Shown: piece by piece, positions 8,347-54,837 of the stretch
How the letters are laid out: every line of letters starts with the position of its first letter
Position numbering within the stretch: the first letter of the stretch is position 1
Source of the DNA: Oceanihabitans sp. IOP_32
GTDB lineage: Bacteria; Bacteroidota; Bacteroidia; Flavobacteriales; Flavobacteriaceae
Reading direction: 5' to 3'
DNA: 64,000 nt
NCBI RefSeq assembly: GCF_009498295.1
Contig: NZ_CP040813.1
Coordinates: 2,797,001 to 2,861,000 of the forward strand
Program-made: the position numbers and the translations under genes
Notes under the pieces: generated by a model
What the model was told of the DNA's origin: nothing
The model's input: only the letters and a program-made list of their open reading frames with translations
Database searches by the model: none

Positions 8347-8784
8347 TCATGATTTTGGCTTATAAGCCATTACTTTAATCTCCACAACCAAATCTGGATG
8401 TGGTAATTGGTGCACTGCAACCGTGGTTCTTGCAGGGCCAGTTTCGGCGTTAAAAAATTCAGCGTAAGCTTTGTTGTATCCCGCAAAATCGTTCATGTTT
8501 ACCAAAAAACTGGTAACATCGACAATATCTTTTAAGGTAGCGCCTTCTTGAGCTAGATTTTTTTCAATGTTGAGTATAACTTCACGAGTTTGTACTTCAA
8601 TATTTAAACGTTTGGTACCCATGTTGTCAATAATCTCTACACCAGCAATGGTATTATCTGCACGACGAGCACTAGTGCCCGATACAAATATAAAATCGCC
8701 CACGCGCTTGGTGTGTGGGTAAGCTCCTCTTGGGGTTACTTTAGTGCTTGTTGAAACTGGAATCTCATTTTTTTTTCTATTCAT
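8347..8784 (-). CDS. RidA/YjgF-family protein, probable 2-aminomuconate deaminase
   Basis: This 145-residue RidA-fold protein starts at the ATG at 8784; a TTG 54 bases upstream would add a Lys-rich stretch that is probably untranslated. It carries the family signatures: GTSARR near the middle, the Arg that binds carboxylates in [13 protein letters not shown], and VEIKVMAY at the C-terminus. RidA proteins hydrolyse imines and enamines. In 2-nitrobenzoate and 2-aminophenol degraders a member of this family (NbaF/AmnD) deaminates 2-aminomuconate to 4-oxalocrotonate. Its place between kmo and the semialdehyde dehydrogenase gene makes that role likely here, though the sequence alone fits a generic imine deaminase too. 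Confidence 0.85.
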
Positions 8785-8841
8785 TTTTAATGATTTTTTT
8801 AATGATTTTTTGCCTTGATACAAAACGAACCAAATCAACTT

Positions 8842-10242
8842 TTATCTTATTCTCGCAATTCTATCGTCCTCTAAAATCGCTTCGGTTTCTTGTTTTACTT
8901 GCTCTAAAATAATTTTTAAATCGTCTTTTAAGTTTATCTTCTTATCAGATAACAAATTCAAAATGGCCTTATCTTGGGCACGTCCTGTGAGCATGGCTTC
9001 ACGATATCCAATATTTTCATTAAAAGTTACTAAGGCATATTTAGACTCGTATTCATTCGGAAAATTTTCCTCTAAGGCAATTTCTAATTTACGCTTTTCT
9101 TGGAATATAGGGTTTGCGGTGTGCGCTTTCATTTCATGGAAATTATCAATGGCTAAATCTGCTATGGCATCGGTATCTTTTTTACGAATTTTCTCATAAG
9201 TTGAAAACACGGCTTCCCAAGTGTTTAAATTTTTGTCTAGAACCTTGTCAAATTCTACAACATCTTCAAAGGAGGCATTCATCCCTTGGCCGTAAAACGG
9301 TACAATGGCATGAGCCGCATCACCCATTAAAAGCGTGTTGCCTTTATAGTGCCATGGCGAACATTTTACAGTGCCTAAAGGTGCTGTTGGATTTTTAAAG
9401 AAATCGTCCACTAAATTTGGCATTAAAGCTAAGGCATCTGGAAATTCTTTTTTAAAAAACTCAAGTACAATAGCTTCGTTTGTTAAATTGTTAAAGTTAT
9501 ATGCGCCTTCACTATAACTTAAAAATAAGGTAACCGTAAAACTGCCATCTAAATTGGGTAGGGCGATGAGCATAAAATCACCACGAGGCCAAATGTGTAA
9601 AGCGTTTTTATAGGTTTTATAGTCGCCATCTTGAGTGGGAAGAATGCTTAGCTCTTTGTAGCCGTGTGTTAAATAATCTTGAGAAAAACTAAATAAAAAC
9701 TTTTTACTTAAATAATAGCTTTTGCGAAGTACAGAACCAGCGCCATCTGTCGCTAAGATGATGTTGGCATTTGCTGTAAACTCCTCTTTAGTGTAATAAT
9801 CTTGAAATAACGCCGAGGGGTTCTCAAAGTCAACCGACTTGCATTTTTTATTAAAATGAATGGAAACATTTTCATGTTTTTCAGCTTCGGTTAAAAGTAA
9901 AGCATTAAGGTCGCCACGAGAAATGGAGTTTATGTATTCGTGGTTTCGACCGCTATAATTAGATAAATGTGTATGTCCATCTTTATTGTGAATCATTCTG
10001 CCATACATAGGAATACAAAGTGCTTTGACTTGCGTTTCTAGACCCACTAATTTCATGGCTTTGTTACCGCGATCTGAAAATGCTAAATTTATAGATCGCC
10101 CTGCAGAAATATCGGTTTTACGTAAATCTGGGCGCATTTCATATACGGTAACTTTAAAACCTCTTTGCGCTAAGCGAAGGGCTAGGAGAGAACCACAGAG
10201 ACCGGCACCTATTATTAGTATGTTTTGTTGTTTGTCTTTCAT
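8842..10242 (-). CDS. kmo: Kynurenine 3-monooxygenase
   Basis: This FAD-dependent aromatic hydroxylase of 466 residues converts L-kynurenine to 3-hydroxykynurenine with NADPH and O2. The N-terminal dinucleotide motif is IGAGLCGSLLALRLAQRG, a second FAD motif is MGDAAHAIVPFYGQGMN near residue 310, and the Arg/Tyr-rich substrate side (SAGRSINLAFSDRG) matches the kynurenine hydroxylases. Unlike the eukaryotic enzyme it has no obvious membrane anchor at the C-terminus. It is followed after 57 bases by the deaminase gene. Upstream, 320 bases separate it from kynureninase, and that gap contains a small mobile-looking element, so kmo may be read from its own promoter (near-consensus -7 box AATATTTG about 15 bases before the ATG) as well as from the kynU promoter. 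Confidence 0.95.
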   Translation of the reverse strand: MKDKQQNILIIGAGLCGSLLALRLAQRGFKVTVYEMRPDLRKTDISAGRSINLAFSDRGNKAMKLVGLETQVKALCIPMYGRMIHNKDGHTHLSNYSGRNHEYINSISRGDLNALLLTEAEKHENVSIHFNKKCKSVDFENPSALFQDYYTKEEFTANANIILATDGAGSVLRKSYYLSKKFLFSFSQDYLTHGYKELSILPTQDGDYKTYKNALHIWPRGDFMLIALPNLDGSFTVTLFLSYSEGAYNFNNLTNEAIVLEFFKKEFPDALALMPNLVDDFFKNPTAPLGTVKCSPWHYKGNTLLMGDAAHAIVPFYGQGMNASFEDVVEFDKVLDKNLNTWEAVFSTYEKIRKKDTDAIADLAIDNFHEMKAHTANPIFQEKRKLEIALEENFPNEYESKYALVTFNENIGYREAMLTGRAQDKAILNLLSDKKINLKDDLKIILEQVKQETEAILEDDRIARIR

Positions 10243-45588: not shown

Positions 45589-46287
45589 TTAGGCCAGTTC
45601 CATCGCAATTTCTACCATTTCAGAAAATGTCGTTTCGCGTTCTTTACTTGTGGTGCGTTCACCTGTAACTAAAGAATCAGATATGGTTAAAATAGATAGG
45701 GCGTTAACATTGTGTTTGGCTGCAACAGTATATAAACCAGCACTTTCCATTTCTACACAAAGCACACCAAATTGCGACCATTTTTCGTACGACTCAAAAT
45801 CGTCGGCATAAAATTCATCTGAAGTAAAAACATTGCCTGCTTTAATTGGAATTTTCTTCTCTTTTGCAATTTCAACTGCTTTTTGAAACAATTCAAAATT
45901 TGCAGTAGGAGCGTAGTCTGCACCACTAAATCGCAAGGCATTAACACCAGAATTTGAAGAAGCCGACATGGCTAAAACAATATCTCTAATTTTAATATGC
46001 TTTTGGTACGAGCCTGCACTACCAACTCTAATCAGGTTTTTAACAGCATATTCTGTAATTAACTCGTGCGCATAAATAGATATTGAAGGTACCCCCATCC
46101 CAGTACCCATAACAGAAATAGGAGTGCCTTTATAAGTTCCAGTATAACCGAGCATGCCTCTTACTTGATTAAAACATATGGGGTTTTCAAAAAAGGTTTG
46201 GGCTATCCATTTTGCACGTAAAGGATCTCCAGGAAGTAAAATAGTTTCGGCAATATCGCCTTTTGCTGCTTCAATATGTACGCTCAT
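45589..46287 (-). CDS. deoD: Purine-nucleoside phosphorylase, DeoD type
   Basis: The enzyme splits purine (deoxy)nucleosides with phosphate. I start it at the ATG at 46287 (232 residues, [15 protein letters not shown]); the longer frame back to 46365 overlaps deoC and is not needed. Motifs are [14 protein letters not shown] (phosphate site), [39 protein letters not shown] (Glu at the ribose 2-OH) and [10 protein letters not shown] (catalytic Asp). The start is four bases beyond the deoC stop, giving a deoC-deoD nucleoside salvage operon. Confidence 0.94.
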
Positions 46288-46291
46288 GCTT

Positions 46292-46957
46292 TTAATAGTT
46301 TGAATTAGATGTTTTATCTGTAACAATGGCAATTCCAGATGATGTTCCAAGGCGTTCCACACCAAGGTTTATATATTCTAATGCCGTTTTTTTGTCTCTT
46401 ATCCCTCCAGAAGCTTTAATTTTAGCTGTGTTTTTCGCAACACTTTTCATAAGCTTTACGTCATTCATGGTAGCACCACCTGAACCAAACCCAGTAGATG
46501 TTTTAATAAAATCTGCTCCACTTTGTACCGCCAGTTCACTAGCTTTTATGATTTCTAAATGGTCTAAATAACATGTTTCTAAAATAACTTTTAATACATT
46601 TTTAGGCATTATTTTTTTTACGGCTTCAATATCTTGCCAAACGGCATCAAAATCTTTGCTTTTAAGAAAACCTAAGTTAATTACCATGTCAATCTCATCA
46701 GCACCATGACTTAATGCTGTTTTAGCCTCATCAACTTTAGCTTGAGTGGATGCAGCACCTAGCGGAAATCCTATAACGCTACAAACTTTAACATTAGTAT
46801 TTTTAAGTTGCTCTTTTGCTAAAGAGACATAACAACTATTCACACACACCGAAAAAAACTCATGAGCAATAGCTTCTTTGCAAAGTTCTATAATATCAAG
46901 ATTGGTTGCTGTTGGTTTTAAAAGGGTGTGATCTATGTAGGTGTTTAAAGGCTTCAT
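46292..46957 (-). CDS. deoC: Deoxyribose-phosphate aldolase
   Basis: This class I aldolase splits 2-deoxyribose 5-phosphate into acetaldehyde and glyceraldehyde 3-phosphate. The 221-residue TIM barrel has Asp9 in IDHTLLKPT, Asp90 in EIDMVIN, the Schiff-base Lys152 in FIKTSTGF, and the proton-relay Lys181 followed by the phosphate-site GGIR (KASGGIRD). These match the well-studied Bacillus enzyme almost residue for residue. It is the intact copy; a degenerate relative lies just upstream at 47097-47834. It is co-transcribed with deoD. Confidence 0.95.
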
Positions 46958-47040: not shown

Positions 47041-47079
47041 AAAAAAGCTAAACAAATTTAAATGTGGTTTAGCTTTTTT
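47041..47079 (-). terminator. Terminator between the divergent deoC paralog and deoC
   Basis: A perfect 13-bp stem, AAAAAAGCTAAAC with GTTTAGCTTTTTT, has a 13-base loop. It lies directly behind the stop of the minus-strand gene at 47097, so the paralog is a separate transcript from deoC-deoD. Confidence 0.85.
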
Positions 47080-47096: not shown

Positions 47097-47834
47097 TTAA
47101 ATATTATCTGAAAAATGTTTTGTTTCAAGAACATCTTCTTCTTTAAAAGTTTTAATGTATTGTTTAAATATTTTAGAGTTTTTCTTAGCGCGAGTTTTTC
47201 CAACAAGCTGTACGCCGTAATTAACTCCAATTCTGTCGGCACCAGCTTCTATATATTTAAGAGCCGTCTCATAATCTTCAATACCATCAAAAGCAGCTAT
47301 TTTAATGTGATTTCTTACTGTTTTTCGTATAATTTTTACGGTACTTAGGGTGGCTCCATTTTTAGAAAAACCACTAGATGTTTTTATATAGTCGATGTTA
47401 GCATCTAAACAAATTTCACAGATTCTAATAATTTCGTTTTTATTTAATTCAGAAATCTCAATGATGACCTTAAGTGGTGTATTTCCAATAGCCAATTTTA
47501 CGTCGGTGATATCTTTTAACACAGAAACGTAATTTTTACTTTTAAGCAAGCCTTGGTTGATTACCATATCAATCTCATTAGCGCCAAGCTGTCTCGCTTT
47601 TTCAGCTTCGTAAACTTTAACTTCTGAGGTTGTTGCACCTAACGGAAAACCAACGGGCGTGCAGATTTTAATATTGGTGTTTTTTAGCAATTGTTTAGCT
47701 AAGGTTAGGTAAGAGGTATGAATATTAATAAACTTATAATTGTGTGTCTGCGCATCTGCGCATAAATCTATAATGTTTCTTTCTGAAGTTGAAGGATGTA
47801 ATAACGCGTATTCTAAATAATCAGCAATTTGCAT
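47097..47834 (-). CDS. Divergent DeoC-like aldolase-fold protein with altered active site
   Basis: This 245-residue DeoC paralog aligns without gaps to deoC over the active-site region. It keeps Asp89 (NEIDMVIN) and the Schiff-base Lys151 (YIKTSSGF), but the relay lysine is Ala180, GGIR has become DGIE, the phosphate-binding TSSG has become VNYG, and the N-terminal DHTLLK has become EYALLH. The C-terminus is about 25 residues longer with a charged tail. It could be an aldolase for a non-phosphorylated or different substrate, or a binding protein. It has its own transcript, ended by a terminator. Fold assignment is firm; function is not. Confidence 0.85.
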   Translation of the reverse strand: MQIADYLEYALLHPSTSERNIIDLCADAQTHNYKFINIHTSYLTLAKQLLKNTNIKICTPVGFPLGATTSEVKVYEAEKARQLGANEIDMVINQGLLKSKNYVSVLKDITDVKLAIGNTPLKVIIEISELNKNEIIRICEICLDANIDYIKTSSGFSKNGATLSTVKIIRKTVRNHIKIAAFDGIEDYETALKYIEAGADRIGVNYGVQLVGKTRAKKNSKIFKQYIKTFKEEDVLETKHFSDNI

Positions 47835-48151: not shown

Positions 48152-48193
48152 AAAAACCAACCCTATTCTAATTTTAGAACAAGGTTGGTTTTT
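48152..48193 (-). terminator. Terminator of clpB
   Basis: An 11-bp perfect stem, AAAAACCAACC with GGTTGGTTTTT, encloses an inner TTCTAA/TTAGAA pairing. It lies about 40 bases beyond the clpB stop on the minus strand and ends in T residues on that strand. Confidence 0.85.
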
Positions 48194-48232: not shown

Positions 48233-50839
48233 TTAAATCTCTTCACTAACTACTTTATTTTGGTTTCTAAAAACTAACTCATCATTAAAAGCATCTAAAA
48301 GTATAATACTATCTGTCGTTATTTTTCCAGCCAAAATTTCTTTACTTAGCGCGTTTAAAACTTCTTTTTGAATAACACGCTTTACAGGTCTTGCTCCGTA
48401 TTCTGGATTATAACCCTTGTTAGCTAAGTAGTTTATAGCTTCGGGAGTGGCATCGAAAGTTATACCTTGTTCTGCAATCATTTTACTTACATTTTTTAAC
48501 TGTAATCCTACAATATCTATAATGTTGTCTTTGCTTAAAGGCGTAAACATAATCGTGTCATCAATTCTATTTAAAAACTCGGGACGCACGTTTTGTTTCA
48601 ATAAACCTAAAACATCAACTTTTGCAGCTTCAATTGCAGATTCTATATCGTTTGTGGCCTCAAAACGTTCTTGAATTAAGTGGCTTCCCATGTTAGAGGT
48701 CATTATTATAATGGTGTTTTTAAAGTCTGCTACTCGTCCTTTATTATCGGTTAAACGACCTTCGTCTAGAACTTGAAGTAAGATGTTAAAAGTGTCTGGA
48801 TGTGCTTTTTCAATTTCATCTAAAAGCACTACAGAATAGGGTTTTCTTCGAACCGCTTCTGTAAGTTGTCCGCCTTCATCATACCCCACGTATCCTGGAG
48901 GCGCACCTACTAATCTACTAACGGCATGACGTTCTTGGTACTCACTCATATCAATTCTGGTCATGGCATTATCATCATCAAATAAATATTCGGCTAATGC
49001 TTTAGCCAGTTCGGTTTTTCCTACTCCAGTTGTTCCTAGAAAAAGAAATGTACCAATAGGTTTTTGCGGATTCTGTAATCCGGCTCTAGAGCGTCTTACG
49101 GCATCACTTACCGCGATAATGGCTTCCTCTTGACCAACAACACGTTTGTGTAATTCGTCTTCTAAATTTAAAAGCTTTTCGCGTTCACTTTGTAGCATTT
49201 TAGTTATAGGAATACCAGTCCATTTGGCCACTACTTCTGCAATATCATCATAGGTCACTTCTTCTTTTATTAAAGTGTTTTCAGCTTGTTCTTGCAATTG
49301 TTTTTGGTACTTCTCTAAGGTTTCTTGAGCTTCTTTTATTTTACCGTAGCGCAATTCGGCTACTTTGCCGTAATCGCCGTCACGTTCTGCACGCTCTGCT
49401 TCAAGTTTGTAGTTTTCAATATCTTGTTTAATGCTCTGTATATTATCAACAACCTCTTTCTCACTTTTCCATTTGGCATTTAATTCATTACGCTCCTCTT
49501 TTATATTAGCCAAGTCTAAGCGCAGTGATTTTAATTTGGCCTCGTCTTTTTCGCGTTTAATGGCTTCAATCTCAATTTCGAGTTGCATGATTTTTCGGTC
49601 TAAAACATCTAATTCTTCTGGTTTAGAGTTGATTTCCATTCGAAGTTTTGATGCGGCCTCATCCATTAAATCAATGGCTTTATCTGGTAAAAAACGGTTT
49701 GTTATATAACGTTGTGATAGCTCTACAGCTCCAATAATGGCCTCGTCTTTAATACGTACTTTATGGTGTGTTTCGTATTTTTCTTTAATACCTCTTAAAA
49801 TTGAGATCGCACTTTCTGTATCGGGTTCATCGACCATTACTTTTTGAAAACGTCGCTCTAAAGCCTTGTCTTTTTCAAAATATTTTTGATATTCATCTAA
49901 GGTGGTCGCACCAATAGCTCTAAGTTCTCCTCTAGCTAAGGCTGGCTTTAAAATATTTGCGGCATCCATAGCGCCTTGTCCGCCACCAGCGCCAACAAGT
50001 GTGTGGATCTCGTCTATAAATAGTACAATATCACCATCGCTAGTAGTCACTTCCTTAATAACAGCTTTTAAACGTTCTTCAAATTCGCCTTTGTATTTTG
50101 CTCCAGCAATTAGAGCTCCCATATCGAGTGCGAAAATTTGTTTGTTTTTTAAATTTTCTGGGATATCACCATCAATAATTCGGTGAGCTAAACCTTCGGC
50201 AATGGCAGTTTTTCCTGTGCCTGGTTCACCGATTAATATGGGATTGTTTTTGGTTCGACGTGTTAGAATTTGAAGAATTCTACGTATTTCTTCATCTCGA
50301 CCAATAACCGGGTCTAATTTTCCGTCTTTAGCTAATTGATTTAAGTTTTTAGCGTATTTATTTAATGAGTTGTAAGTGTCCTCTTGACTTTGTGATGTTA
50401 CATTTTGACCTTGACGTAATTCCTCAATAGCGGCTTTTAAGCCTTTTTCGGTTACGCTTTGGTCTTTTAGCATTTGAGCAATTTTACTATTAGATTTATA
50501 AACCGCTAATATTAAGTGCTCAATAGACACGTATTCGTCTTTCATGCTTTTGGCAATTATCGCAGCTTCGTTTAACGTTTTTCCAGCGTCGCGCGAAAGC
50601 ATAATTTCACCACCAGTAACTTTAGAAAAGCTTTCTAATTGCTTGTCTATGGTTTGTTTAAGTATGCCAATGTTAACGTTTAGCTTTTTTAATAGGAATG
50701 GTAATACATTTTCATCAACCTCAAAAATGCCTTTAAAAATATGCTCATTTTCTATTTGCTGATGCCCGTAACCCTGAGCAATTTGCTGTGCTTGCTGTAT
50801 GGCTTCCTGCGATTTTATTGTAAAGTTACTTAAATTCAT
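48233..50839 (-). CDS. clpB: ATP-dependent chaperone ClpB
   Basis: This AAA+ disaggregase works with DnaK to pull proteins out of aggregates after heat stress. I start at the ATG at 50839 (868 residues, MNLSNFTIKSQEAIQQ); the longer frame adds an untypical KKIKNH stretch. Order of parts: Clp N domain (1-145), first AAA with GEPGTGKTAIAEG and DEIHTLVGAG, the long coiled-coil middle domain (about 400-530, RLDLANIKEERNELNAKWKS), second AAA with GTTGVGKTELAKA and LLDEIEKAHPD, and the C-terminal domain. It is a single-gene unit with a terminator. No CIRCE operator is visible upstream. Confidence 0.96.
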   Translation of the reverse strand: MNLSNFTIKSQEAIQQAQQIAQGYGHQQIENEHIFKGIFEVDENVLPFLLKKLNVNIGILKQTIDKQLESFSKVTGGEIMLSRDAGKTLNEAAIIAKSMKDEYVSIEHLILAVYKSNSKIAQMLKDQSVTEKGLKAAIEELRQGQNVTSQSQEDTYNSLNKYAKNLNQLAKDGKLDPVIGRDEEIRRILQILTRRTKNNPILIGEPGTGKTAIAEGLAHRIIDGDIPENLKNKQIFALDMGALIAGAKYKGEFEERLKAVIKEVTTSDGDIVLFIDEIHTLVGAGGGQGAMDAANILKPALARGELRAIGATTLDEYQKYFEKDKALERRFQKVMVDEPDTESAISILRGIKEKYETHHKVRIKDEAIIGAVELSQRYITNRFLPDKAIDLMDEAASKLRMEINSKPEELDVLDRKIMQLEIEIEAIKREKDEAKLKSLRLDLANIKEERNELNAKWKSEKEVVDNIQSIKQDIENYKLEAERAERDGDYGKVAELRYGKIKEAQETLEKYQKQLQEQAENTLIKEEVTYDDIAEVVAKWTGIPITKMLQSEREKLLNLEDELHKRVVGQEEAIIAVSDAVRRSRAGLQNPQKPIGTFLFLGTTGVGKTELAKALAEYLFDDDNAMTRIDMSEYQERHAVSRLVGAPPGYVGYDEGGQLTEAVRRKPYSVVLLDEIEKAHPDTFNILLQVLDEGRLTDNKGRVADFKNTIIIMTSNMGSHLIQERFEATNDIESAIEAAKVDVLGLLKQNVRPEFLNRIDDTIMFTPLSKDNIIDIVGLQLKNVSKMIAEQGITFDATPEAINYLANKGYNPEYGARPVKRVIQKEVLNALSKEILAGKITTDSIILLDAFNDELVFRNQNKVVSEEI

Positions 50840-51136
50840 ATGGTTTTTTATTTTTTTGATTTTCTCTCTCGAGTAAATCATGTTAATATTTCCGTTTTGT
50901 CATTGTAAAACTATTTTCATTAGCTTTACTTTTACACAATGAGTCAATAACCTTACCAACTCAACTAGAGCGACAAAATGTCTGTAAAAAAATTTACGAT
51001 CACGACTTTTAGTCAGTTTGTAAGGTTGTTGAAAGGTTACGACTTATAAGGTTGTGAAATAAAGATTTCTAAACGCTTAGGAATTTATAAAATAAAAAAT
51101 CATCTATCCTTGTTTTCAAGGATTAATACGTTTGTT
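50840..51136. promoter_or_regulatory. Divergent clpB / ytxJ regulatory region with repeated TAAGGTT motifs
   Basis: In about 110 bases there are three plus-strand copies of a TAAGGTT-like motif (TAAGGTTGT at 51021 and 51047, AAAGGTTAC at 51033) and one inverted copy (AACCTTAC at 50949). A short inverted repeat GTAAA-AAAA-TTTAC lies at 50984-50997. They may be binding sites for a regulator of either gene; this is only a pattern seen in the sequence. Confidence 0.35.
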
Positions 51137-51572: not shown

Positions 51573-52721
51573 TTAATTCATTTTTAGTAAACGCCTTAGT
51601 AGAGTTTTGGTAAAGCGCCAAGAGGGTACAGCTGTAAGTATTTTTAAATCTTCTAATACATGAGTTTTTTCATCGAGAAACCTAAAAATGGTGGTGATTT
51701 TAGCCTTTTTAAATAAGCTTGAAAATAATTTTGAGCCATAAGCGTTATCTTGAGATAAAACATCGAGCATAAGCACATCGTAATACCAAAACTTATTGCG
51801 TTTATAGAATTTGGAAACATCGGTTTCAAATTTTAGAAATTCGACCAAAGCCTTGGTTTTTTTAGCCGTATTCATAAAGGTATAACCTGTGCTGGCCTTG
51901 GTCCAACCCCCAGCGGTACCAATATTTAAAATATGTTGAGAATTTTGTTTTGAAAACTCATAACAAGTCATGGGTATGGCACCTGTTTCGGTTTCAGTAA
52001 TACTGTAGTTTTCAATGCCTTTGTTCTGCAAATATTTTTTTATACCATTTTCGTAGTCTTTTTTTTCTAAGATATCTTTCGAAAATAAAGTGTACTCGAA
52101 TAGGGCTTCTGTTTTACTTGTTGGTAAGACATACATAAAGCGCGTATTGCCGTTTTGCGGAATTTTAAAATCCATAAATGTCGCAAAAGTATCGTCAAAT
52201 TGCGGCGTTTCTGTTTTTATAAACCATCCTATAAAATGTTGCTGTAAAACGGGGTATTGGGTTTGAGTTTTATAGTAATTAGTAAGTATTGAGCTATTAA
52301 ATACTTTTGAAGCCTCTAATATTTCAGAATCTGTAGTAACTAAAGCTTTGTTTTCAATAGTTTTAATACGGAGTACTTCGGCTTGAAGAAATGAAATGTT
52401 TGGTGTTTTGTCTATAATTTGCCATAATTTTTTATAAAATGAGGCACTTCGTATCATTTTGTACGTATAGGGTGCAATGTTTATTTGTTCTGAGTGATAA
52501 TCACTTCCAAAGTAAACTGTTTTCCAATCTTTATAAATGATATCTTCCCATTCGCCATTGCCTTTTTCCCAAAAACACCAGGTGCGATCGTTCTTTTTGT
52601 CTTTTATCTTATCGATTATAATAATAGATTTATCCCTAAAAAAAGGATCATTAGCCATGCGGTACGCCAATAACAATCCCGATGCTCCAGCACCTGCTAT
52701 GATATAATCTGATTTTATCAT
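51573..52721 (-). CDS. crtY: Lycopene beta-cyclase, CrtY type
   Basis: This flavoprotein of 382 residues forms beta-ionone rings at the ends of lycopene. The start at 52721 (MIKSDYIIAGAGASG) places the dinucleotide motif IIAGAGASGLLLAYRM at the N-terminus; the longer frame runs into the upstream gene. Other features are DRTWCFWEKG, the family block after the first sheet, FATFMDF, and GTAGGWTKASTGYTF, typical of CrtY. It starts two bases after the stop of the hydratase gene, so it is translationally linked to it. In this operon it probably makes monocyclic gamma-carotene derivatives. Confidence 0.92.
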   Translation of the reverse strand: MIKSDYIIAGAGASGLLLAYRMANDPFFRDKSIIIIDKIKDKKNDRTWCFWEKGNGEWEDIIYKDWKTVYFGSDYHSEQINIAPYTYKMIRSASFYKKLWQIIDKTPNISFLQAEVLRIKTIENKALVTTDSEILEASKVFNSSILTNYYKTQTQYPVLQQHFIGWFIKTETPQFDDTFATFMDFKIPQNGNTRFMYVLPTSKTEALFEYTLFSKDILEKKDYENGIKKYLQNKGIENYSITETETGAIPMTCYEFSKQNSQHILNIGTAGGWTKASTGYTFMNTAKKTKALVEFLKFETDVSKFYKRNKFWYYDVLMLDVLSQDNAYGSKLFSSLFKKAKITTIFRFLDEKTHVLEDLKILTAVPSWRFTKTLLRRLLKMN

Positions 52722-52723
52722 TT

Positions 52724-53362
52724 TTAAAAGAATAAAAATACGGTAAAAAATACGGCTATCGAAATCAAAATATGCCACGAAATAGCGGTGTCGGTTTTTA
52801 TTTTAAAATACTGATAACCCAGATGTGCAAAAAAAGCCGTTACCACCCAGCCTACGTAATTTTGAAGGGGTACCACACCATTTTCAAACTCCCAGAAGTC
52901 AAAACGCGGTGCAGACTGCTCTAAAAGCATATCTAAAGCCGTCATTATAACACCGCCAATTAAAGATGCTATAATTATATTTTTTGAGAACATACGTGCT
53001 ACATCGGCAGATGCGGCTGTTAATAACGCCCAATTAAAACAAATAATTATGGGGACGCCAGCTATTTTCCAGCCCAAGTTTTCTCCATATTGGTAGGTGC
53101 CAAAAATAAGTCCGTAATTTACACCTAAAGCTTCTGTTATAAAACCTAATGTAAACGGAATACTTAAAGCTATTATAGCTTTGGTTTTTAAGGCGTCTAT
53201 GTTTAGTAATAGGATGGCAAATGTGATTAATAAATTTAATGGGGTTAAACTTAAAAACCAATCAGAATACGTGTTTGATAAAATACCAAAAACCCCAGAG
53301 ATCGTAAATAACCAAAGGGTAAATATGGATAAGAATCTTTTAAGTTGTTTTAGTGTTATCAT
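52724..53362 (-). CDS. cruF: Carotenoid biosynthesis protein, CruF-type 1-prime,2-prime-hydratase family
   Basis: This 212-residue polytopic membrane protein of the carotenoid synthesis family (PF04240) has about six hydrophobic segments. Conserved parts are GFITEALGVNYGLIFGTYQYG, the IAGVPIIICFNWALL helix, and MLLEQSAPRFDFWEFENG with Glu and Asp residues thought to be catalytic. CruF adds water across the psi end of carotenoids such as gamma-carotene. It overlaps crtD by four bases (ATGA). Its place between crtD and crtY supports a saproxanthin or myxol type of pathway, as known from marine flavobacteria. Confidence 0.85.
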   Translation of the reverse strand: MITLKQLKRFLSIFTLWLFTISGVFGILSNTYSDWFLSLTPLNLLITFAILLLNIDALKTKAIIALSIPFTLGFITEALGVNYGLIFGTYQYGENLGWKIAGVPIIICFNWALLTAASADVARMFSKNIIIASLIGGVIMTALDMLLEQSAPRFDFWEFENGVVPLQNYVGWVVTAFFAHLGYQYFKIKTDTAISWHILISIAVFFTVFLFF

Positions 53363-54837
53363 TTGGAGTCGTTTTCAATGAGTTGAGATACTATTTTTCC
53401 TGAAAGCAGGCAGAGCGGAATACCACCACCAGGGTGTACACTGCCACCACAGAAATACAGATTTTTAATGTTACTTTTATAATTTGGATGTCTTAAAAAT
53501 GCTGCGTACTTGTTGTTACTAGAGGCTCCATAGAGTGCACCTTGATAACTTTGAGTGTTCGATTCTATACTTCTTGGGTCTAAAATGTCTTCAAAAGCAA
53601 TAAGATTAGAAATGTCTTCACCTAATAAGCGGCTAAGTTTTTTAATAATATTTTGTCGTGTTCTGTTAATAATTTCATCCCAATCTTGCCCTGTATTGCT
53701 CGGTACGTTTACCATGGTAAACCAGTTTTCACAGCTGTTGGGTGCATCGCTAGGCTCGTCTTTTGAGGTGATATTTATATAGACAGTAGGGTCGTTACAC
53801 ACATTTTTTTTATTAAAAATATATTCGAATTCCGTTTTGTAGTCTTTTGAAAAGAAAATGTTGTGCAAATCTAATTGATGAAACGCCTTAGTAATTCCCC
53901 AATAAAATATAAGAGCCGAGCTACTTCTTGGCTGCTGTAATATTTTTTCTGGTGCTTTTTGATCTTTTAACAGCTGGCGATAGGTGGGTACAATATCTGA
54001 GTTTGAAACTATAACATCTGCAAAAACTGTGGCATTACGATTTTGTATGCCTACCGCTTTTTTGTTTTGTATTACAATTTTATCAACTTTTTTGTCAAAT
54101 TGAAAAATGACTCCAATATCTTTAGCCAATTCGAACATACTCAGAGTAATTTGATGCATACCACCTTTTGGAAAATAGGTGCCAAAATGTTGTTCTAAAT
54201 GCGGGATCATAGACATAATACCCGGAGTTTGATAAGGAGAAGAACCATTGTAGGTTGCAAACCTATTATAAAATTGCGCCAATCGTTCGTCTTTAAAAAC
54301 TTTGGTATTATGGTCTGCAAGTGTTGTGTTTATATCTAAACTATTTACATTAAAAAGAGCTTTTAATGTATCTGTATTTAGATAAGTAGAAGTTTTATGC
54401 AGTGATTTTTCAAGGAATAAGGAGGCGGTTAAATCGTATTTTACTTTACTGCGTTCAAGGTAATTGCGTACAGTTTGGGCATCAACATTAAAGGTTTTAG
54501 AGGCGTTTTTTGCAAACTGTTCTTTATTGGCAACGGCAGAAAATGTTGTACCATCTTCGTAAAAGTAATTACACACCACTTCTTTTTTAATGTACTGAAA
54601 ATAATCTTTTATTGGTTTGTTTGCTAGCTCAAAAAGTTCCTCTATAAAATGAGGCATGGTAAATAAAGACGGTCCTTTGTCAAAGCGATAACCTTGTTTT
54701 GAGAAAGCACTTAACTTTCCTCCGGGATAGGAATTCGCCTCATAAACCGTAACCGCATAGCCTTGAGCTTGTAAGCGAATAGCAGTAGCAAGTCCTGCAA
54801 TACCAGCACCAATAATGATAACTTTTTTCTTTTTCAT
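53359..54837 (-). CDS. crtD: 1-hydroxycarotenoid 3,4-desaturase CrtD (phytoene-desaturase family)
   Basis: This 492-residue FAD-dependent carotenoid desaturase has the dinucleotide motif IIIGAGIAGLATAIRLQAQG, the CrtI-family YEANSYPGGKLS, FDKGPSLFTMP, and the C-terminal FAD block YFCGGSVHPGGGIPLCLLSG. The GPSLFTMP wording and the neighbouring cruF point to CrtD, which introduces the 3,4 double bond next to a tertiary hydroxyl, and not to CrtI; the alternative, CrtI, is less likely but not excluded. It leads a three-gene operon with cruF and crtY. A TATCTTTG -7 box on the minus strand ends eight bases before its ATG. Confidence 0.82.
   Translation of the reverse strand: MKKKKVIIIGAGIAGLATAIRLQAQGYAVTVYEANSYPGGKLSAFSKQGYRFDKGPSLFTMPHFIEELFELANKPIKDYFQYIKKEVVCNYFYEDGTTFSAVANKEQFAKNASKTFNVDAQTVRNYLERSKVKYDLTASLFLEKSLHKTSTYLNTDTLKALFNVNSLDINTTLADHNTKVFKDERLAQFYNRFATYNGSSPYQTPGIMSMIPHLEQHFGTYFPKGGMHQITLSMFELAKDIGVIFQFDKKVDKIVIQNKKAVGIQNRNATVFADVIVSNSDIVPTYRQLLKDQKAPEKILQQPRSSSALIFYWGITKAFHQLDLHNIFFSKDYKTEFEYIFNKKNVCNDPTVYINITSKDEPSDAPNSCENWFTMVNVPSNTGQDWDEIINRTRQNIIKKLSRLLGEDISNLIAFEDILDPRSIESNTQSYQGALYGASSNNKYAAFLRHPNYKSNIKNLYFCGGSVHPGGGIPLCLLSGKIVSQLIENDSK

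Follow-up and report, generated by a model that had tools for sequence, protein, structure and literature searches.

Genes and Features of the Locus

The window, that is, the whole stretch of 64,000 nucleotides that was analysed, comes from a marine flavobacterium which carries side by side an intact deoC gene (hereafter C) and a paralogue of it (hereafter P) with 42% identity in alignment. The open reading frame of P starts at an ATG, and each residue of P bears the number of the corresponding C residue minus 1. The features of the locus, all on the minus strand, are the following.

45589..46287 (-): DeoD-type purine nucleoside phosphorylase, counted from an inner ATG (open reading frame, family scan)
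46292..46957 (-): canonical deoC, C, with the full catalytic residue set (open reading frame, alignment, TIGR00126)
47041..47079 (-): 13-bp hairpin followed by a U run, probable terminator between P and deoC (z -3.6)
47097..47834 (-): paralogue P, 245 aa, DeoC fold with an altered active site (open reading frame, alignment, TIGR00126, structure prediction)
47097..47201 (-): C-terminal tail of P, residues 212-245 and stop, in place of the short end with a terminal Tyr
47154..47183 (-): tail motif KNSKIFKQYI (comparison of tailed P)
47214..47225 (-): VNYG for TSSG, phosphate-site loop (alignment)
47277..47288 (-): DGIE for GGIR, phosphate-site loop (alignment)
47295..47297 (-): codon of Ala180 at the relay lysine position, Lys201 of E. 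coli (alignment)
47316..47348 (-): helix alpha6, P residues 163-173, better conserved in P than in the accompanying C
47382..47384 (-): codon of Lys151 at the Schiff-base lysine position, Lys167 of E. coli (alignment)
47490..47534 (-): helix alpha4, P residues 101-115, likewise better conserved in P than in the accompanying C
47568..47570 (-): codon of Asp89, aligned with Asp102 of E. coli DeoC; the five nearest relatives have Glu
47796..47813 (-): EYALLH for canonical DHTLLK (alignment)
48152..48193 (-): hairpin followed by a U run, probable clpB terminator upstream of P (z -7.5)
48233..50881 (-): clpB-like gene, the usual upstream neighbour of P (open reading frame)

The gene at 48233..50881 is named clpB-like from its sequence and is presumably clpB. 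The mechanically called deoD frame (45589-46365, minus strand) begins at a TTG within deoC; since the family match starts at residue 27, the start is likely the ATG at 46287, which lies a few bases past the deoC stop and makes deoC and deoD a tight pair. Three further genes of the window, at 51573-54837 on the minus strand, look to us like a carotenoid cyclase, a membrane protein and a phytoene desaturase.

The sequence-only reading had assigned P a transcript of its own, and the hairpins with U runs on both of its sides agree: P is probably its own transcription unit, set apart from the salvage pair deoC-deoD, and a P-C operon is disfavoured by the hairpin lying between the two genes. A terminator consensus scan listed the clpB hairpin only, as the one between P and deoC was missed because of its 13-base loop. 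Sigma-70-like promoter sites numbered 10, no more than the 12.5 expected by chance, and TANNTTTG, which we took as the promoter motif for the scan, did not exceed chance in the window either (104 occurrences, 106.7 expected), with no match between 47060 and 49881 and thus none upstream of P.

Fold and Active Site of P

P scores 232.6 bits on the DeoC/DERA model TIGR00126 (cut-off 117.3), and model-based annotation would therefore still call it DeoC. The AlphaFold2 model of P (pLDDT 87.8) is a DeoC-type TIM barrel whose best PDB matches are DERA chains; against 5dbu, Z is 34.1 and the rmsd 1.2 over 211 residues at 39% identity. P thus resembles the DeoC/DERA family (TIGR00126; Pfam PF01791) in its fold, its Schiff-base lysine, its Asp and its score, while it differs in that the relay lysine, the GGIR and TSSG loops and the terminal Tyr are replaced and a tail is added, and some relatives of P have lost even the Schiff-base lysine.

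In E. coli DeoC, the equivalent residues are Lys167 (Schiff base), Lys201, Asp102 and, for phosphate, Ser238/Ser239, and the C-terminal Tyr participates in catalysis (PMC8403123, PMC6244999). In C numbering, the changes of the window P are Asp9Glu, His10Tyr, Lys14His, Lys181Ala, Gly184Asp, Arg187Glu and the replacement of TSSG (205-208) by VNYG, while Lys152 and Asp90 are present. All differences that had been named before from the letters (those in DHTLLK, Lys181, GGIR and TSSG) are found in the alignment, and the loss of the relay lysine (Ala180) and of the phosphate site (DGIE, VNYG) is borne out, as is the retention of Lys151 and Asp89 in the window copy. Within its subclade, the retention of Asp89 is confined to that copy, all five other members having Glu at the site. 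The sequence of P ends in FSDNI, without the terminal Tyr. Compared with its presumably active paralogue, the window P has thus undergone a loss of catalytic residues of the kind expected of a pseudoenzyme, the relay lysine being gone; by the same Ala180, it departs from DERA forms for non-phosphorylated substrates, in which the Asp/Lys/Lys set is kept and only the phosphate site is altered.

Comparative Sample

The search covered 99 relatives (62 with any match) and then 397 genomes of the family (at least 258 with any match), with at most six candidates scored per genome. Loci were taken from 101 genomes, and the final set comprised 143 of 145 proteins from 100 genomes, namely 89 of the P lineage and 54 canonical C proteins; 43 genomes carry P and C, 46 P only and 11 C only. 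Left out were G376 (an open reading frame of 7 aa, not extended) and the second, long-form DeoC of G005. Matches weaker than about E 1e-67 were only partly taken in, so that the set may miss very diverged P. Proteins were assigned to P or C by 50% identity to the window P, apart from G105_1 (placed by hand in P) and G028_1 and G293_1 (placed by hand in C). The matched comparison of P and C used 41 of the 43 two-copy genomes, G028 and G293 being left out because their second copy belongs to another lineage; in these two (L010, L155), each DeoC copy has an intact site and the second falls in a different lineage on the tree. Five C sequences end at the edge of the locus, and their phosphate loops were not counted. 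The tree came from a quick search, and several of its nodes are unsupported. The genus of the window contributes one genome and that of G017 two, which were already in the set; the named close relatives, at 69-74% identity, are Wocania, Flaviramulus and Gaetbulibacter.

TIGR00126 was also used to recheck second copies, in 61 and 22 genomes. These include all 46 P-only genomes, 44 of which gave one match; G005 and G406 have a second, long-form DeoC. The long form is an open frame of 336-340 aa, scores about 133 bits on the model and is located within a few kilobases of an altered P (L192 of G005, 8535-9068; G406:C36:140777-141457).

In all 42 genomes with both genes on one fetched stretch, C follows P in the same direction, with a gap of 75-254 bp in 33, of 862-911 bp in G278 and five others and of about 8.2 kb in two. 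In several two-copy genomes (L002, L031, L032, L034 and others), an OmpW-like gene on the opposite strand lies between P and C, and its insertion accounts for the gaps of about 900 bp. P adjoins clpB, and P-only as well as C-only genomes carry deoC at the same clpB-side position. This fits an old tandem duplication with reciprocal loss, and C may alternatively have been transferred to beside P. Across genomes, clpB precedes, and deoD or a carboxyltransferase pair and other genes follow; as the same genes also flank an intact-site P or C, the conserved neighbours suggest no partner. In many genomes, a TetR-like regulator and a thioesterase-like gene stand between clpB and P (L186, 2010-3214, and similar loci); both are absent from this place in the window.

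Loss of Catalytic Residues among Relatives

C keeps Asp90, Lys152 and Lys181 in all 54 proteins, including those of all 43 two-copy genomes. For P in two-copy genomes, Asp90 is present in 19/43, Lys152 in 36/43, Lys181 in 15/43 and all three in 6/43; the corresponding counts for P-only genomes are 43/46, 45/46, 40/46 and 38/46. Altogether, Lys152 is lost in 8, Lys181 in 34 and Asp90 in 27 of the 89 P, and at least one of the three in 45. A strict rule demands the phosphate loops in addition to Asp90, Lys152 and Lys181. By this rule 32 P count as intact, 30 of which belong to P-only genomes; the other 57 are altered, 41 from two-copy genomes and 16 from P-only ones. The terminal Tyr is kept in 19 of the 32 intact-site P, in 2 of the 57 altered P and in 43 of 49 complete C.

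Lys152 is replaced by Glu in G017, G123, G184, G208, G284 and G329, by Thr in G373 and by Gln in G005, and all eight genomes have a second DeoC. The fewest changes on the tree were 4 for Lys152, 7 for Lys181 and 11 for Asp90. Most altered P fall in one large clade (support 99), and many inner nodes are weak. A statistical association on the tree between a second copy and erosion was therefore set aside, with only three supported independent pairs.

These counts bear on the simplest view, that P is an ordinary deoxyribose-phosphate aldolase which tolerates unusual residues. P lies well over the TIGR00126 cut-off, and in 30 of 46 P-only genomes it passes the strict rule for an intact site. The window P, however, lacks the relay lysine, the phosphate loops and the terminal Tyr beside an intact C, and we regard this view as highly improbable.

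Both pocket lysines are lost in none of the 89 P (chance 0.017, phylogeny ignored), and the presence of at least one in every P hints at residual chemistry. With Lys151 in place, residual chemistry is possible in the window P as well.

Selection and Conserved Surfaces

All 89 open reading frames of P are complete, the shortest being 214 aa. Among 11 close two-copy pairs with a finite value, dN/dS of the P core was 0.008-0.167, and that of C, where finite, 0.043-0.094; the values come from a simple count method, and dS was mostly close to 1 or higher. Examples are G278/G430 (P 0.058, C 0.048), G006/G248 (0.083, 0.059), G000/G278 (0.167, 0.094), G019/G435 (0.066, 0.085) and the Glu152 pair G123/G329 (0.039, 0.057); for G212/G386, which lack C, P gave 0.060. 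In the pairs of the window itself, P has 0.086-0.167 against 0.066-0.094 for C, so that purifying selection is somewhat weaker in P.

In the 41 matched genomes, the mean pairwise difference was 0.367 for P and 0.267 for C overall, and 0.37 against 0.10 in the barrel strands. The outer helices alpha4 (P 0.19, C 0.35) and alpha6 (P 0.27, C 0.42) go the other way. For each of the two, 4 of 212 equal windows were as low, and the direction of both differences was the same in each of 200 random half-samples; alpha5 did not differ (0.22 and 0.21). In P-only genomes, alpha6 and alpha5 are conserved too (0.16 and 0.19 in intact P, 0.16 and 0.15 in altered P), while alpha4 is not unusually conserved (0.29 in intact P, 0.33 in the altered P of 16 genomes). 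The constraint on alpha4 and alpha6 points to a putative binding face.

Open frames, low dN/dS and helix constraint together show P retained by selection, the second trait expected of a pseudoenzyme. It had been argued beforehand that, if orthologues did not conserve Lys151 and Asp89, P would be decaying. Half of this came about, the two residues being lost in 8/89 and 27/89, but decay does not follow here, because the frames are open and close pairs are under purifying selection. A redundant copy in slow decay could account for the faster overall change of P and for the drift of pocket sites in three altered clades; the complete frames, the low dN/dS, the outer helices which are better conserved in P than in C, and a Glu152 clade covering four sampled genera (G208, G184, G017/G284, G123/G329) speak against it and leave it barely credible.

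The C-Terminal Tail

The long tail of P reported earlier is real. Its 34 residues (212-245) replace the short canonical end, with a helix predicted at 221-239 and pLDDT below 50 for the final nine residues in the AlphaFold2 model. Among the 89 P compared, 32 have at least 238 aa, and all 32 carry a loose form of the tail motif, with the consensus RN(S/T)KI(Y/F)K(Q)Y(I/L) and counts of R29/K3, N30, K27, I26, Y17/F15, K28 and Y31. None of these tailed P has an intact site by the strict rule; Asp90, Lys152 and Lys181 are kept in 10 of the 32, which hence combine the full Asp/Lys/Lys set with an altered phosphate site. Outside the motif the tail varies, with dN/dS of up to 0.58, and 57 of the 89 P have no long tail; the tail is therefore a lineage addition and cannot hold a function common to all P. 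The idea that further proteins encoded in the genome share the tail was discarded, since only P matched well (E 4.5e-18; next 0.25 and 0.85).

P without C

In six genomes (G160, G361, G212, G386, G201 and G051), an altered P is the only DeoC, with a single TIGR00126 match each, and a DeoD-type phosphorylase over the cut-off is likewise lacking. Completeness is 99% for five of them and 88% for G051. Lys152 is present in all six, and Lys181 is lost in five. That these altered P lack both C and DeoD argues that P is not there for finishing deoxynucleoside breakdown or for serving C. The loss of DeoD was considered as a marker of altered P and dropped, as 19 of 38 scanned genomes are without DeoD, seven of them with an intact-site P. 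Phosphopentomutase (TIGR01696) was over the cut-off in none of 20 genomes, that of the window included, and is therefore uninformative.

The same six genomes bear on the possibility that P, like a prozyme, assembles with C into a heteromer and governs the activity or stability of C. P stands upstream of C in the same direction wherever both were fetched together, mostly at a short distance, and trypanosomes offer known cases of catalytically dead paralogues activating their enzyme (PMC5201418, PMC3663545). P shares with these systems (reviewed in PMC10211241) that it is a paralogue of an active enzyme, has catalytic residues gone and is kept by selection. Co-occurrence with an active counterpart, however, holds for the window and the 43 two-copy genomes and breaks down in the six, where P persists alone. 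Moreover, G373 has its C elsewhere on the chromosome, a probable terminator separates P from deoC in the window, and the distances of 862-911 bp and about 8.2 kb noted above loosen the pairing further. We consider such a partnership improbable.

The Pocket of the Window Subclade

The subclade of the window (G000, G006, G248, G278, G430 and G366) keeps Lys152 in 6/6. Nine of its 13 changed pocket sites are invariant, which does not differ significantly from the 98 of 187 (52%) among its other sites (p 0.27). Three further altered clades, about as deep and picked like this one after inspection of the tree, have just 4 invariant sites among 32 changed ones (p 0.0004 when compared with the subclade of the window). 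The comparison of 9/13 with 4/32 suggests a pocket that was rebuilt around Lys151 and partly re-fixed, and not merely abandoned. This subclade may thus have an altered chemistry or sense a ligand.

The sequence-only reading had suggested for P a class I aldolase, with Lys151 forming the Schiff base and a substrate that is bulkier or carries no phosphate, or else a sensor protein, which P may also be. For the family as a whole the aldolase is not supported, in view of the losses of Lys152 and Asp90; it stays tenable for the window subclade, with its constant lysine and largely invariant changed sites. In its favour, 81 of 89 P keep Lys152, no P has lost both lysines and the changed pocket is partly re-fixed. 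In E. coli DERA, moreover, Ser238Asp makes activity on deoxyribose 2.5 times higher and lowers kcat on the phosphate by more than 100-fold, and improved variants include removal of Tyr259 or a C-terminal extension (PMC8403123). Like those engineered forms (S238D, F200I/dY259, C-terminal extension), P is changed at the phosphate loop and the C-terminal Tyr; the natural window P, unlike them, has also lost the relay lysine, and the engineered variants named in PMC8403123 appear to keep both lysines. Lys167 and Lys201 are each called critical in E. coli (PMC6244999). With Lys152 turned into Glu in a clade of six genomes and into Thr or Gln in two others, and with Asp90 lost in 27 of 89 P, we hold an altered-substrate aldolase to be an unlikely explanation of P, though one of some weight.

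Proposed Role of P

The reading we prefer, with a probability of about one half, is that P is a DeoC paralogue kept by selection whose family-wide role is not the cleavage of deoxyribose phosphate and which probably acts by binding, with the outer face and, in tailed forms, also with the tail. Against it weigh the lack of a P-C difference in alpha5, the ordinary conservation of alpha4 in altered P of P-only genomes, the 57 P that have no long tail, the pocket lysine kept by every P and the somewhat weaker selection on P in the window's pairs. Where an intact C exists, C would do the catalysis, while P would have kept or gained a binding role via alpha4, alpha6 and, in tailed forms, the tail. 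In the window subclade only, the pocket might accommodate a ligand that carries no phosphate, perhaps through a reversible Schiff base, with Glu9, Tyr10, His14, Tyr150, Ser155, Phe183, Asp184, Glu187 and Tyr207 (C numbering) rebuilt around Lys152, and P might report this ligand to a partner.

A wider account, which we offer tentatively and put below even odds, would see in P a flavobacterial barrel lineage under the DeoC name, recruited to non-metabolic binding on the alpha4-alpha6 face, in many species with an RN(S/T)KI(Y/F)KxY helix. The role would have outlived the chemistry, with the Schiff-base lysine, the relay lysine or the phosphate site dropped separately, some lineages left without other DeoC and DeoD, and P always kept; the pocket of the window subclade would have been refitted about Lys151 to take a new ligand, an aldehyde or a carbonyl, and in the Glu152 clade the relay lysine could have become the nucleophile, given that no P lacks both lysines.

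If the preferred reading is true, a salvage-enzyme family as annotated includes many members unable to carry out that reaction: 57 of 89 P fail the strict rule, yet each matched P in 83 scanned genomes exceeds the TIGR00126 cut-off. P would then also be a natural series in which one site was dismantled in different orders with the fold kept, and its second function could be tested directly, with close species pairs, a matched active paralogue and the six genomes with a stand-alone P.

A literature search for a DeoC pseudoenzyme or a flavobacterial DeoC paralogue, with subscription journals mostly outside its scope, returned none (PMC4207490 was unrelated); within the same scope, four papers mention BH1352 and none the term K184L. 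The BH1352 K184L structure (PDB 6msw) resembles P in a lysine lost in the laboratory, which by its position would be the relay lysine, and differs from P in being one engineered change and not an evolved set.
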